A stretch of DNA of 64,000 bases. It comes from Marvania coccoides (lineage: Eukaryota > Chlorophyta > Trebouxiophyceae > Chlorellales > Chlorellaceae). The notes beneath the pieces are model-generated. The model made no database searches. It was not told the origin of the DNA and saw nothing but the letters and a program-made list of their open reading frames with translations. Shown here in pieces: positions 45,801 to 53,025 of the stretch. A program made the position numbers and the translations under genes. The DNA lies in the NCBI GenBank assembly GCA_963854735.1, contig OY978107.1, forward strand, positions 689,501 to 753,500. The letters run 5' to 3'. Each line of letters starts with the position of its first letter. Positions within the stretch are counted from its first letter, which is position 1.

Positions 45801-48709
45801 GTAATAAAAAAATGGTGGTTTTGACGCAAAACTTTCACTCGTTTGTGGGCGAAAAAGTGTTGAAATTGATTTCGGAAAGAGGAGAGCACGAAAGAAAGGG
45901 CTGCAGTGCGCATTTATTTACCTGGTGGGGAGAGTCGGGGACCTCTGCTTCCAGCGGGCGCAGCAGGAGCAAGGGATAGAGCGCACCGACCTCGGCCTTC
46001 AAAAATTCACGCAGGCGAGGGGAAGAAAGGATGGCGCCCAGAATGGACACCGCGCCATCCACCGCCTCGTCGTACGGCGACATGCAGTTACGCAGCAGCG
46101 CGCGGCACAGCGGCTGGCGCAGCTGCTGAGCAAACTCGCGGCGCACCTGAGAAGCAAAAAAAAACGATGTAATAGTTTCAACAGGATACAGCTCAGTAAA
46201 CGAGTTTGAAATGAAGATCAATGGGGCTTTGGGGGCAATTTATATACAAAAATTGAGTATTCACGTCATCGTTATTTTTGCAATGAAGAGTTGTTGTTCA
46301 TTTTTCATATGCCCGATAAGCACCGAGGATAATTAGTATGTATATGTATATATATATGTATATGTATATGTATAATAAAAGCCCAGTCTTATTTCTCAAC
46401 AAAAATAAGATTTAAAGAGACCCCAGGGGGGGTCATGGACATGCACGTTTCCTTTTCTTTCATACCTGGTTCCAGTCGTGGGCCGGGTTGGTGAGCACCT
46501 TGACCAGCATGTCGAGGGCCAGCAGCTTCCCTGTGTGCATGTAGGTCTCAGCAGCGCCAATGCCAGTCTCGCGCGCTGCCAACTGCAACAACAAAAGAGG
46601 AAGAACGAAATTTGTTATATTTAATCAACAAAATGAGAATGAGTTAAATAAAGAGGCTCTTGGGGAGGGCAGGCATAAAAAAGCGTTTTCCCATCCTCTC
46701 AAGACTGAAAAGCAAAATATGAAGTGCACCGCGGTTTCCCCCTATTTAGCACAAAATTTGCACTCATAAAAACACTCCATAAAAAACAGCCCCAACATTA
46801 CCAGACCCCCCATCTTTTCTCCTCTCTCACCTTGCACATGGCGTTCAACACTATTACAGCGTCCCGCTCCGGTACCGTCAATCGGCGCCACTCTGCAGCT
46901 CTTCGGTCCCTCATCAACGCTCTCCTGGGGTCAGGAGGGGTATCCACGCGCGGCAGCCGCCCGTGAGATTCGCTCTCCTCGACCTTCTCGCCCCTCGGGG
47001 AAATGCCGATGGCGGCAGCGGCAGCAGCGGTGATGGCGGTGGTGATTTTCGCAGGTTTTGAGGTCTTAATGGCGGTGGGGGGGATCAGCCCCACGTCTTC
47101 CGCGCCTTGCAGCGGCGCCAGGGAGTCCAGCGCCATCTCCAGCCCCCGCAGGTCCGCCTGCTCAGCCAAGCTTGCCAGCTGGGCGGTGCGGGTGTCCTCC
47201 AGATGCCGCTGCTGCGCCGCCGCAGCAGACGCTGCCGCCTCCGAATCCTTCCCGCTGCTTCCTGGCGCCGCCTCCACTGCTGCGGGCTGGTCAGGGGGAT
47301 GGAACGGGAGGCCGGCAGTGGCAGTGATCGGGGTTCTGGGGGATTGGCCCCCTCCGCCCGCTGCAAAAGCGGCCAAAGCCGCTGCCTCCGCCAGAGCGGG
47401 GTTGGAGTCGGAGTCTGGCATGAACGCGGCTGCTGCCGCGAGGCTGGAGAGGTCGGCAGAGGCACCGGCGACGGCGGGAAGCGGCCAGGTGGCAGCCGGC
47501 GGGCTGCCCCCTTCCTCCTCGTCGCGGGGGGTGAAGCGGCGCAGTGGGGACATCATAGGGGTGCCACCCGGGGTCTACAAGGCGAAAACATGTTGAAATT
47601 AGAAAAGAAAAAAACAAAAAATTCTGCCAGGAAATGGACCTCTTGCCCCCTCCAGAGAGCTTCAGCACAGCTGTATCCACGTTTCACAATGCAAAGAACA
47701 ATTGCCATTTCATCGAGTCTTCTTACTCCAACCCCCTGTTCTCTTCACCCGACCCCCCCCGCCCCCCCGACCACCCATTCAACATGAATATAACTTAAAA
47801 AACTGCTACTCACGACGATCTGCTGCACCACCCGCTTCGCAATGGTGTTGAGCATCTGCAGCAGCGCCGACCGCGCCGTGTTTTTTACGTCCTCCGACGC
47901 GCCGCCCACGGCAATGTTGAAAACAGTGCGAACGGCCTGCATCAGGGTGTCCCCGTGCGAGGCAAAGTGCTCCGCGGTGGCCAGCGTGAGCATCGTTTTT
48001 ACCACCGCCAGCTCCACCTGAAATAACAAGCCAATTGAACCCACCAAAAGTGAGAGAGAATGGCACCGAACTTATTGCTGTATTGTTCTGACAAATTTTG
48101 AAGAAGTTGCACTCATTTTGAAGCAGATAAAAATGAGAACGATGCAGTAACCGTAGAATGTATTATTATTACTATTTTTATGTGCTCCCAAAACAATAGT
48201 CTGCCAACCCACCTGCGCGTTGTGGCTGTTTGCTGCCTTTGCCGTCATTCCAACGACAGACGTGACCAGATTGGAGGCGTCATCCAGGCGACCGCTGGCG
48301 CGGGTCTCACCCTGGAGGTAGGCATACGCTACAAGCTTGTGGAGGCAGGCCAGAGCGGGCTCAGCAAATTTGGGGGAGCCCTGGGCAAGGGAAGACCGGA
48401 GCACCGAGATGAGAGGCTCGGTGACCGCGTCGGTGAAGGGCACGCTGAGGCAGCTCCCTGGCTGGCCAAACTCATTGCCGCGCAGCAGATCTGGACAGAT
48501 GGGGGGCGAAACGCACGGGAAAAGGTGTTGAACACAACTGAAAATAGAGGATGAATGTGATCGTCGGAAGTTGACTGACCTTTCAGTGTTTGACATGCAT
48601 CGCGAAGGTTTTTTAACTCTTGGCTGCGGCCGTTGTTTGCCAAGCTGAGGATGACGTCCAGTTGTCTTAAGAAGAACGACTCGATGTTGACATTATGTCC
48701 GGAGGCCAT
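39822..48709 (-). CDS. BIG: BIG-type Sec7 ARF guanine-nucleotide exchange factor
   Basis: Thirteen exons join to 2002 aa: 48580-48709, 48213-48490, 47814-48017, 46831-47574, 46466-46582, 45922-46146, 45154-45765, 44634-44969, 44030-44392, 43022-43864, 42505-42818, 42025-42241, 39822-41447. The order is that of large brefeldin-sensitive GEFs. A DCB region begins [15 protein letters not shown] with [18 protein letters not shown]. Then come an HUS-type segment with [19 protein letters not shown], the Sec7 domain (about 715-890), and HDS repeats with [20 protein letters not shown]. The Sec7 catalytic Glu lies in [14 protein letters not shown] near residue 802, followed by [14 protein letters not shown]. 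It loads GTP on ARF1 at the trans-Golgi or endosomes; an ARF1 gene lies 17 kb away. Long Ala/Pro/Ser-rich insertions in exons 4 and 10 and the final 542-codon exon make it longer than plant BIG proteins. Confidence 0.92.
46302..46434 (+). repeat. Dispersed short repeat, copy 3 (full)
   Basis: Head TCATATGCCCGATAAGCACC then GAGGATAATTA, a middle of TATG/TATA microsatellite (about 46335-46374), and tail CTTATTTCTCAACAAAAATA followed by AGATTTAAAGAGACCCCAGG. CTTATTT and AAATAAG in the tail can pair as a short hairpin. It lies inside BIG intron 5. Confidence 0.7.
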
Positions 48710-48959
48710 GTTATTTTTTTCTGGTAGCGGCGATTCCACCACCCTGGATGGTTTAGCTCCACATAATGATCAAATTACAATTGAACCCCCCCCCAGAAAT
48801 TGTGAGCAGTTGTCTTCTTTCTTTTGAACTGAAAAAACAAAAAAATACGGCTTTCCGGCATTTGTCAACTCAATTTTAATCTTTGAATATAGCAAAGACA
48901 TCCAAGCCCCTGGAAATACACAGCAAATCGAAAGCAGCCCGCCATTGGAAATAACCAAC
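48710..48959. promoter_or_regulatory. Divergent region BIG / SpoVS-domain gene
   Basis: 250 bp between opposing start codons, the tightest divergent pair here. It contains GCCATTGG (inverted CCAAT-type box) about 15 bp before the SpoVS-domain ATG. Function inferred. Confidence 0.4.
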
Positions 48960-50308
48960 ATGTCCGTGCCCACAAACACAGTAGAGGACAGAAGCAGGTG
49001 AGCGCCCTATTGTTGTGGTGATCCAATAAAGCGAATGTCGCAGCGAGTCGCCAGACTTCTATTACTGCGGAAAACAAAGCTGAGGAGTCACTTCATCTTT
49101 TTTTTTTTACCATATGCAGGCCCAGCCAGTCTTCCGACGGCGACCAAGACATGCAGGACGACTCTGTGAAATTATCAGATTTTATTATGGTGGGTTTGGG
49201 GGCTGTTGCGAGCCGCACAGCGAGTGGCACGTATGCGCGATGTTCGATGCCCCCTCCTTTTCGCACGAAAAGAGGATCTCACCACTGACTTCTATAGAAT
49301 CATCATACTGACTCCCCTCTCATGTTTTTTCTATCTCTTTGCTACTACCCTAACAGGTCTCTTCCCGTGACGACGTTCAACGCCTGGCTGGAAAAATTGC
49401 CTGGAACGCGCGGCGTGAAGGAAACGTGCCCATGCTGGCCTCAGGCGCTGCCTCCATCAACACAGCTGTGCAGGTAAATATTTAGCTCCTCCATTTTTTG
49501 TGGTTGCGCCTGTGATACAACTTGAAATTGAACCACTTATTTAATATATTCGTCCTCAGGCGATTGCCATGGCTCGGGACTACCTGGGCGATGATGAGGA
49601 ACCCAGGGAGCTGCTGTGCCAGCCTGCATTCCGCTCGGACAAGCACTCCAAATCTCTCGCGTTCTATCTGACAACCAGCCGCTTTAGAAAAACAGACCTG
49701 GACACTAGCGTGAGTTCCTCGTTATACTTTGTAGAGGGAAGGGCTTATTTTCGGCCGTCAACCTCGTTCGTTAGAGCTCAGCAGCGCAATGAACCCTACA
49801 AAGCCTGAAGCTGAATTGTTCTTTCTTTTCAACCGTGTTGCAGTCCGCATCGTTCACTGTGTCCAAGGCGTCCAAGCATTCGGTTGTGGCTGGGGCCATC
49901 GCAGCTCGCGTGAGTAATATTGAAACTAACAACTGTTTTTTATTCCCACGCTCAGTGGCCGACCTTGAGCCCAATTCACAAGCAAAGAAAAATTTCCCTA
50001 CATAACCGTGCTTATGAAAATACACTAAATTTGAAGTGCTGCATTGTGTTTCATATTAATTATCAATGATTTTTCTTCTTGTTCCATTGCAGGCTCGTGA
50101 GGGGGTTGGTCCCATCGTGACTGCCATTGGCGAGGAGGCGGCCTGCAACGCGCTCATGGCCACCTGCAAGGCGCGGCTGTACCTCGAGGAGGACAACTTG
50201 GACGTCCGATTTGTGGCTGTGGTAGAAAATGTTGAAAAGACCGGCGGCGACGGCATCACAAAGATGCTGCAGGCGCTGAAGCTCAGGATATACGTGGAAG
50301 AGGTGTGA
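48960..50308 (+). CDS. Tandem SpoVS-domain protein
   Basis: Six exons (48960-48997, 49120-49189, 49357-49473, 49560-49709, 49844-49909, 50093-50308) give 218 aa. After a polar 34-residue N-terminus (RPSQSSDGDQDMQDD) come two copies of the SpoVS fold. Copy 1 (about 35-120) reads FIMVSSRDDVQRLAGKIAWN, VPMLASGAASINTAVQAIAM and ARDYL. Copy 2 (about 127-218) reads SFTVSKASKHSVVAGAIAAR, VTAIGEEAACNALMATCKAR and LDVRFVAVVENVEK. The pattern VSS...AGAIA...AIG.GA.NQA.KA.A.AR is the bacterial SpoVS signature, an Alba-like nucleic-acid-binding fold that in bacteria affects sporulation and septation. The role in algae is not known. There is no transit peptide or membrane segment, so nucleus or cytosol is likely. 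Typical short introns show it is a genuine nuclear gene. Confidence 0.85.
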
Positions 50309-51190
50309 AAAATAATTACACGTGAAAGAGAGTGAAGGCAGGAGGTTGTTTATATATATAGAAACATCATACTAGTGACGGATATATATATACATTTACG
50401 TTAATTTTGCCTGCCATAGCCACGATACCTAACATGGAAAATGTGAATATCGCCAGTATTGAAATTCTTTGTTAATACTATTATTTGCGTTGAGTACACT
50501 ACAGCCTTTTCATTAATTTTTACTACCCGCTCCTTTTCCCCCCTCCTTTTCCCCCCTATCTGTGCGTATCTACTGGTGAACATTCAACGCCATTGCCCCC
50601 CTTTTCCTCGTTTCGTACTCCACTTTTATAAATTAACGTTGACTCTTTTCCCCATACAATGATTTATAAATACTAGTATGGTATAGTTTCTACGACTGTA
50701 CCAAGAGAGGAATCGGGCGGGCATAATAAACCACTCACCCTTTGACCTGCAACACTGCCGAGTATAGCCGACCATGGAGGCAGCGGGAGAATGGCGCAGC
50801 CAACTGCAACGACTGCAAAAAAACTTAAGGAATTTTAACCTATTAAAACATTGAGCTGCCGACGGCAATCCCTCCCCGCCAGCAGCGTTCTTCCACAGCC
50901 CATCTGGTTTGCGGAGCACGTCTGCACATCTGAAGCCTCCAGCATGGCCTCAAAATGGAGAAGAAAAGCCAGTCATTTTTTGAGATCTAGGAGGATTCTT
51001 TCCAAACCCAAAATTTCTTTTTTGGTTGCGAGGCAGCACCCTAAACTCGCTCTGCATACCGTTGCCCCACGTTTTTACATTTTATTTGTTACCCACTATT
51101 GGTTCTGACAGGCGTGCTGAAGGCGTAGCGCTTGATTTTCACGAAAATTTTCGTCGGACTCGCAAATCGATTTCTGTTTCGGAAATAGCC
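50309..51190. other. Intergenic after SpoVS-domain gene
   Basis: 880 bp. A plus-strand open frame near 50866-51108 (ATG GCC... basic residues) lacks support. Upstream DNA of the 69-aa protein gene lies at the right end. Nothing firm. Confidence 0.5.
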
Positions 51191-51718
51191 ATGGGAGGCT
51201 TCACTCAGTTCATCGTGCGCAAGTAAGACTCAATACTGCATTTGTCGCAACTGCGGGGGCCTCCAGGCCGCGTTTTTTCGGTTAATGAGCATATCAAACT
51301 TTTCATCTCGAATTTTTTGTGCGCCTGCGCCAGCGACGTGCTCCTCCAACTCCACACCCTTCCCTAAATCCACCAGAAAGTACCGACGATGCTTTAAGGT
51401 TGACCAATTTCGGCTTTCATCCTCTATTTTTGCAGGCACAATGCCATTGGCGCCACCCTCTTCTCGGCCTCAGTGCTGGGCTCGTTTTACTACACGATGG
51501 TGAATGGCAGGAGCGCTTTTGTCGACGCCCACACCCTCATCACAGGTGCGGGCAATTTTGGTGACCCCTAAGCTCATCCAACAAATGAAACAGCATGCTC
51601 GCTTTTATTTTATTTTCTTCTCCTCACGTTCCTCATTTTTGCTGCTGCAGGGAAGGCTGACGATGACATGACCGCCCCGGCCAAGGCCAGCTATACCTAC
51701 CAGCTCAAATTCCGCTGA
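51191..51718 (+). CDS. 69-aa single-span membrane protein
   Basis: Three small exons (51191-51222, 51436-51545, 51651-51718) join in frame to 69 aa. It begins MGGFTQFIVRKHNAIGATLF and has one hydrophobic segment (GATLFSASVLGSFYYTMV) with positive charge before it. It ends with TYQLKFR. Size and layout resemble accessory subunits of mitochondrial respiratory complexes or ATP synthase, but I do not recognise the family. All borders are GT-AG with correct phase, so the gene is real despite its size. Confidence 0.72.
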
Positions 51719-53025
51719 GCGAGAGATTTTCACCTCCTTTTTCAATGCGGAGCCAAATCATTTTCCTTCCGATTCCGTCTGCTTCTCAGATTTTTCATAC
51801 GCTATTTTTGACACCAATTTTTCTTCTTCATCCAATATATACTGGGCCCTCCAGCAACCTGTTTTTTCTTCTTCCGCATAATGTTTTTCTTCGCGCGCCA
51901 AGGCGTTTTTCCTTCTCTTTTCGATGTGCCGATACGCCGATGTGATTTTTACGTATGATTGATCCCCCCCCCCCCCTGCATGAACCAACTTCTACAGGCT
52001 ACCAACGAGTGAACACTGTCCTTTTTTCTCAGGGCCACTGCAAGTTTTCCCCCTTTTTTCTTTTTGCGGTTTTGTGTGGCTACCATGATAATTTGCCCCT
52101 GCTTTTTCCGTGCGCCTTCTTGTTTTTAAGCTACGCGAGCTGATGCCCGCGGACACTCTCGAGGCCACCCAAGTTTTTCCTTTTCTCCCTTTTTCTTTTG
52201 TAAAGAGCGATCGAAGCAATTATTTCCTGTCTGCTAATTTTCCTTCGACGTGCCTGTCCCTTTTTCCCTTCCTGTGGCGTATTTATCTTTTTCTCCACTG
52301 CAAGCTGAACTTGCAGGGAGCCATTTTCCCCCAATGGCTGCGCTGCACCTTTTCCTTCAATTTTCGAGTGATGATCTGTTTTTTTTTTTAGAACACTCTA
52401 CGATGATAACGATGAAAAGCTGTGTATTTCTTCTTTTACCCTCAATTTTCTTGCTTCTTGCTTTTTATCTTCCATCGCCCCTCCCAAAGCGAGCTGGAAC
52501 TCGCCTCCTGGACTTTTTTTCACCCACCCACCCCACCTCTTTCACCTCCTCAAAAAAATGCTAGCGATGCTGACGATAATCACAGGGTTTTTTATAGCGT
52601 AAATGATTAGTACTAGTTTTTTCTTTCTACCTTGCTGTACTCCTGTTAGCGACGAAAGACAAATTTTTTCGACCCTAATTCTTTCTTTTTCCACCCTTCT
52701 TAGCGCACACTTATTAAAAAATCTCGTCGTTCTTCGTGTTTTGTTTTTCTTCTCGGGGAGTTTACACCTCTAATACGACAGATTCCATCCTTTGTAAGAA
52801 CAAATCCACTATAATCCATTCACATCTCACACAGCAGCAAGCACAAAAGCACACACACACACAAAATTCATCATCTACTTCATCTTCATCATTGATCGGT
52901 TCATTAGACGCAGAGGCGGGGGGAAAAGGCATTAAAAAGTAAACATATCAACGTTTCTTTCCTTCCTCCCGCCCTACGCCATCAGCAGCAGCACGTCACA
53001 CATGCCCTTTTCCTCACGCACCCAT
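51719..53025. other. 1.3-kb intergenic, strongly pyrimidine-rich plus strand
   Basis: Between two convergent gene ends, the plus strand is dominated by long T/C tracts from about 51720 to 52780, with a C-run at 51963-51976 and a (CA)n run at 52850-52862. No gene recognised. Confidence 0.6.

Follow-up and report, generated by a model that had tools for sequence, protein, structure and literature searches.

A paired-SpoVS gene of the green alga Marvania coccoides and its relatives among eukaryotes

Within a 64,000-nucleotide stretch of contig OY978107.1 of the green alga Marvania coccoides (assembly GCA_963854735.1, positions 689,501 to 753,500; the window below) lies an intron-containing gene, at 48960-50308 on the plus strand, whose product carries two SpoVS domains in a single chain. 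We find that it belongs to a conserved eukaryotic family, uncharacterised as far as we have seen, and is not a lone curiosity. The more surprising members of this family are not the window copy but relatives outside the green algae, many of which start with a tag like that of human messenger RNA (mRNA) export adaptors. Our preferred reading, to which we assign a probability of roughly 0.45, is that the two SpoVS domains form a predicted Alba-like pair that binds RNA and is associated with messenger ribonucleoproteins (mRNPs).

The 218-residue, six-exon gene of the initial annotation was reproduced, the joined exons giving 657 nucleotides that encode 218 amino acids and a stop codon. All five introns (122, 167, 86, 134 and 183 bases) have GT-AG borders, and every one of them contains an in-frame stop if read through. 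The coding region and its exons are as follows.

48960..50308, plus strand: paired-SpoVS coding region, start to stop codon, six exons
48960..48997, plus strand: exon 1, residues 1-13; short acidic N-terminal tail, without a UAP56-binding-type motif and not rich in arginine-glycine (RG)
49120..49189, plus strand: exon 2, residues 13-36; remaining tail and first strand of domain 1
49357..49473, plus strand: exon 3, residues 37-75; first part of SpoVS domain 1
49560..49709, plus strand: exon 4, residues 76-125; second part of SpoVS domain 1 and linker
49844..49909, plus strand: exon 5, residues 126-147; first part of SpoVS domain 2
50093..50308, plus strand: exon 6, residues 148-218 and stop; second part of SpoVS domain 2

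The protein is acidic, with an isoelectric point of 5.2 and a net charge of -5. Inspection by eye of stop-to-stop frames of at least 30 residues in 47000-52000 revealed no exon further upstream that would supply an RG-rich or tagged N-terminus. The locus is the only one for SpoVS found in the 22.46-Mb, 15-contig assembly: a protein search at E up to 1 gave five exon matches, all of them here, and a family search gave one SpoVS match. In one relative, P0001, the residues before the first SpoVS domain resemble an unspliced intron that ends where the acceptor of the window's exon 3 lies (49357), which fits the exon boundary given above.

The whole protein matches Pfam SpoVS (PF04232) in two stretches at 87.1 bits (E 6.5e-25), and each half by itself exceeds the cut-off of 24 bits, the first at 45.5 bits (E 6.6e-12) and the second at 46.2 bits (E 3.9e-12), which bears out the proposal of two SpoVS domains in an intron-containing gene. 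Against a bacterial-only hidden Markov model (HMM) the halves score 39.4 and 39.3 bits, respectively. The only clear sequence match in the PDB is to Thermus SpoVS, through the first half (E 6e-6), and NCBIfam yielded no match at E up to 1. Both halves share their sequence family with bacterial SpoVS (PF04232; Thermus 2EH1/2EK0), from which the window protein differs in having two domains in one chain and introns in its gene. The first copy had also been described as the more diverged; this holds for the tree presented below, in which its end branch is longer (0.34 versus 0.13), but not for the HMM scores, which are equal for the two halves with both the Pfam and the bacterial-only models.

An Alba/SpoVS fold, expected from the outset, is seen in an AlphaFold2 model of a homologue 52% identical to the window protein, which has two Alba-type domains (predicted local distance difference test, pLDDT, 88.8; predicted template modelling score, pTM, 0.80). 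Domain 2 of this model superposes on Thermus SpoVS, so that bacterial SpoVS and this domain have a common fold, and it is domain 2 that filled the structure comparisons. Behind SpoVS, the best fold matches include archaeal Alba and Alba-DNA chains, and the model thus shows both the SpoVS fold and the Alba-type fold. The two-domain prediction is consistent with an intramolecular dimer. Compared with the Alba superfamily (archaeal Alba, Rpp20/Rpp25), the present family differs in being SpoVS, not Alba, and in having two domains per chain.

A protein search with the window protein returned 17 homologues, the nearest at 63% and 57% identity. Named homologues come from the Trebouxiophyceae Nannochloris (52%) and Auxenochlorella (47%, with the record name EZY7) and from Dunaliella (40%), a member of the Chlorophyceae; all three are paired, and those of Auxenochlorella and Dunaliella are full-length. 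A Prototheca homologue has 119 residues and one domain, and one homologue from EukProt has an RG-rich N-terminus. A profile search gave 922 matches at E ≤0.001, and among the best 120 of these are proteins assigned by name to the haptophytes Diacronema lutheri and Prymnesium parvum and the thraustochytrid Hondaea fermentalgiana, together with several transcriptome proteins (we take the codes CFRG and Rmarinus to denote Creolimax and Rhodelphis marinus); a second profile search gave 75 matches. In a set of 195 proteins, made up of 194 relatives and the window protein, 72 have at least two domains over 20 bits and none reaching 100 bits with the bacterial-only HMM. These 72 paired proteins comprise 58 non-green and 14 green ones, the label "green" following source names for P0004, P0005, P0015 and P0016 and identity or place in the tree for the others. 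The fused tandem protein first noted in this alga is real, but the claim was too narrow, since the pairing extends beyond this alga and beyond green algae: paired homologues occur in several protist groups, two haptophytes and a thraustochytrid among them. Two proteins, P0019 and P0020, carry four SpoVS domains each, of eukaryote type, as a doubled pair. A single chain of P0143 contains two SpoVS copies of bacterial-like type, and P0136 has four weaker copies; bacteria, too, may have multi-copy SpoVS chains.

The pairing goes back further than the sampled green algae. We built a tree of 100 domains, consisting of 40 first and 40 second domains (from 40 of the 72 paired proteins) and 20 bacterial-type domains; a scan of a contig database, which kept 80 of 489 SpoVS loci, mostly titled Chloroflexi or Anaerolineae, stands outside this tree. 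The alignment retained 88 columns only and the bootstrap had yet to settle, so that deep forks carry little weight. The first domains lie together on one side of a branch (76/77, not starred). For the second domains three changes are required, those of P0040, P0044, P0134 and P0145 standing apart and that of P0055 lying among the bacterial rows; the data do not reject a single group of second domains (p-AU 0.257, from the approximately unbiased test), nor a single eukaryote group set against the bacteria (p-AU 0.409). The window's two domains fall into mirrored green groups of 11 rows each (98/92 and 99/92), in which they group with Nannochloris, and the second half is set apart from the bacterial rows. 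A constraint that unites every green domain, first and second alike, was chosen after the tree had been seen and is rejected (p-AU 0.0165). Since first and second halves separate and a green-only duplication is rejected, the pairing predates these algae.

The evidence that links the family to RNA comes from the N-termini of the relatives, where a UAP56-binding-type motif like that of ALYREF is followed by RG repeats. In ALYREF itself, UAP56-binding motifs lie at the two ends of the protein and RG-rich regions flank the RNA recognition motif (RRM) domain (PMC7744094, in the portion available), and its N-terminal motif binds the RecA2 lobe of UAP56 at 28 uM (PMC12823420, likewise in part). Of the non-green paired proteins, 48 have tails of at least 30 residues. 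A regular expression for the motif, composed after the tails had been seen, matched within the first 40 residues in 20 of them and not in the other 28; 1000 shuffles of the same tails gave 0.12 matches on average and never more than 2. The counts leave aside 10 of the 58 non-green proteins (tails below 30 residues) and 2 of the 14 green ones (below 20). None of 113 proteins with a bacterial-like domain matched, 73 of which have at least 20 residues before the domain. When tails were scored instead with BLOSUM62 against nine ALYREF residues, 17/48 non-green proteins reached the threshold of 18 (shuffle mean 0.085, maximum 2), P0126 and P0130 being identical to ALYREF at all nine, and none of the 12 green proteins or the 73 bacterial-type extensions did so. 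The best score in the window protein is 12, and by this measure it has no UAP56-binding motif. The green relative P0013, which begins MDDLI, scores 17 and possibly retains a remnant of the tag. Motif bearers are not independent of one another, the fewest changes on the tree being 5 (for 36 of the 40 first-domain rows, 14 with the motif). The absence of a tag from P0001 and P0003 says little, because the tails of both resemble unspliced intron.

A second motif, R-x-x-P[YI], which we take to resemble a PY nuclear import signal, occurs in 20/48 non-green tails (shuffle mean 5.6, maximum 13) and in 7/12 green tails, the shuffles covering the non-green tails only; the window protein is without it. 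A Pfam scan of 55 relatives (set A4) found no RRM among the five families listed, and we therefore say that the tagged relatives would "work like" ALYREF and not that they "are" ALYREF. Many non-green paired relatives thus share an N-terminal UAP56-binding-type motif and an RG-rich tail with ALYREF/UIF-type adaptors, from which they differ in having a SpoVS pair in place of the RRM. These signals point to mRNA export or mRNPs, and because so many relatives start with a tag like that of human mRNA-export adaptors, the family likely consists of RNA binders resembling mRNP or export adaptors.

We envisage the RNA-binding reading as follows. Each half is predicted to adopt a beta-alpha-beta-alpha-beta-beta Alba-type fold, and the two halves would pack against each other, taking the positions of the two subunits in the bacterial SpoVS dimer. 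In many non-green relatives the tag and RG-rich tail would, as in ALYREF, bring the protein to RNA and to the helicase UAP56, and the SpoVS pair would stand where ALYREF has its RRM. The green-algal branch would have lost the tag or never had it. Most economically, the window copy is a shortened member of the family that has no tag or RG tail and would have lost its connection to export; it keeps the domain pair and, with it, likely RNA or ribonucleoprotein (RNP) binding, perhaps in a regulatory capacity.

Several observations weigh against this reading. The window protein lacks both tag and RG tail, and its acidity sets it apart from typical nucleic-acid binders; judged by sequence, it does not qualify as an ALYREF-like adaptor. 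No PDB entry matches its tail, and the regular expression matched 0/12 green paired proteins, the window's included. The best PDB match of the P0030 tail is human ALYREF (THO complex subunit 4; 8r7l_D, E 2.6e-6, and 7znk_L, E 1e-5), but this match is strongly composition-biased (26/30 bits), and the tail of the tagged P0138 is not significantly similar to ALYREF, the ALYREF-like REF2 (ALYREF2) appearing at E 4.8. The same genome has a match to FoP_duplication at 53.2 bits (cut-off 24.6), which we take to be a domain of ALYREF-type proteins, and with such a gene present no replacement is needed. Under the terms searched, the accessible text of PMC8510167 says nothing about SpoVS binding nucleic acids, and the open-access literature searched yielded no assay of any family member.

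With still more reserve than we attach to RNA binding itself, we propose that early eukaryotes acquired a bacterial SpoVS, doubled it once to an Alba-like pair within one chain and fused this with an RG tail and a UAP56-binding tag, giving a second type of ALYREF-like export adaptor, one without an RRM, now patchy in protists, and that the green algae, that of the window included, retained the pair, shed the tag and took the protein into another RNA-linked role.

An alternative that we consider rather unlikely is that the green-algal branch serves as a protein-protein scaffold or developmental regulator (in the sexual cycle, the zygote or chloroplast-to-nucleus signalling) and no longer binds nucleic acid. 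The acidic window protein without an RG tail would suit such a role, as would the record name EZY7 in Auxenochlorella, where EZY presumably stands for "early zygote". In Chlamydomonas, Cre06.g258850 ("Stage V sporulation protein S") appears among carbon-concentrating mechanism (CCM) genes changed more than 8-fold in the gun4 mutant (PMC8320531, in the section available), and a Gonium SpoVS marker scores, by our reading of the table, 0/78 with the mating-locus marker LEU1S (PMC4856071, also in part). This case rests on names and expression and supplies no mechanism, however, and the fold is of a nucleic-acid-binding type. The name EZY7 leads in the literature only to a paper that, by its title, concerns yeast mannosylation, and the portions available of the EZY papers make no mention of SpoVS, so that a zygote role gained no support from the literature covered.

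That the protein is instead a DNA- or chromatin-binding Alba-like protein would agree with the high rank of archaeal Alba and Alba-DNA chains in the fold comparison, but the acidity of the window protein and the RNA-export kind of tail in its relatives make this improbable. Bacterial contamination or a recent bacterial transfer with its own tandem copy, conceivable for a domain common in bacteria and found as two copies in P0143, is ruled out for practical purposes by the five introns, the orthologues in named green algae, the mirrored green groups of the two halves with rejection of a green-only duplication, and the grouping of P0143's own two copies together among the bacterial rows.

Upstream of the SpoVS gene, a Mon2/Sec7/BIG1-type DCB domain (35.8 bits, cut-off 25.6) is encoded at 47745-48071 on the minus strand; its gene seems to begin near 48710 and to run divergently from the SpoVS gene.

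Previous work, as far as its available text goes, describes SpoVS as bacterial (PMC11621453), as important in Bacillus sporulation (PMC8510167) and as a protein whose actual role is not established (PMC3141063). Open-access searches returned no paper on PF04232 and none on SpoVS with YunD, and the eukaryotic paired-SpoVS family and its tag were undescribed in the portions of that literature available, in which no search joined SpoVS with UAP56. PMC8119650 concerns SpoVK. Green-algal SpoVS/EZY7 entries, including Chlamydomonas Cre06.g258850, are annotation-level in the literature covered, which gave no function or family description for them. What is new here is the ALYREF-like tag on non-green paired-SpoVS proteins. 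A eukaryotic paired SpoVS with a tag of the mRNA-export type offers a concrete hypothesis for SpoVS, namely RNA or RNP binding, and the export adaptors of protists may include one whose fold is not that of the RRM. The window gene represents this family in compact form and as a single copy, and the annotated Chlamydomonas SpoVS gene would permit a test in a model alga.
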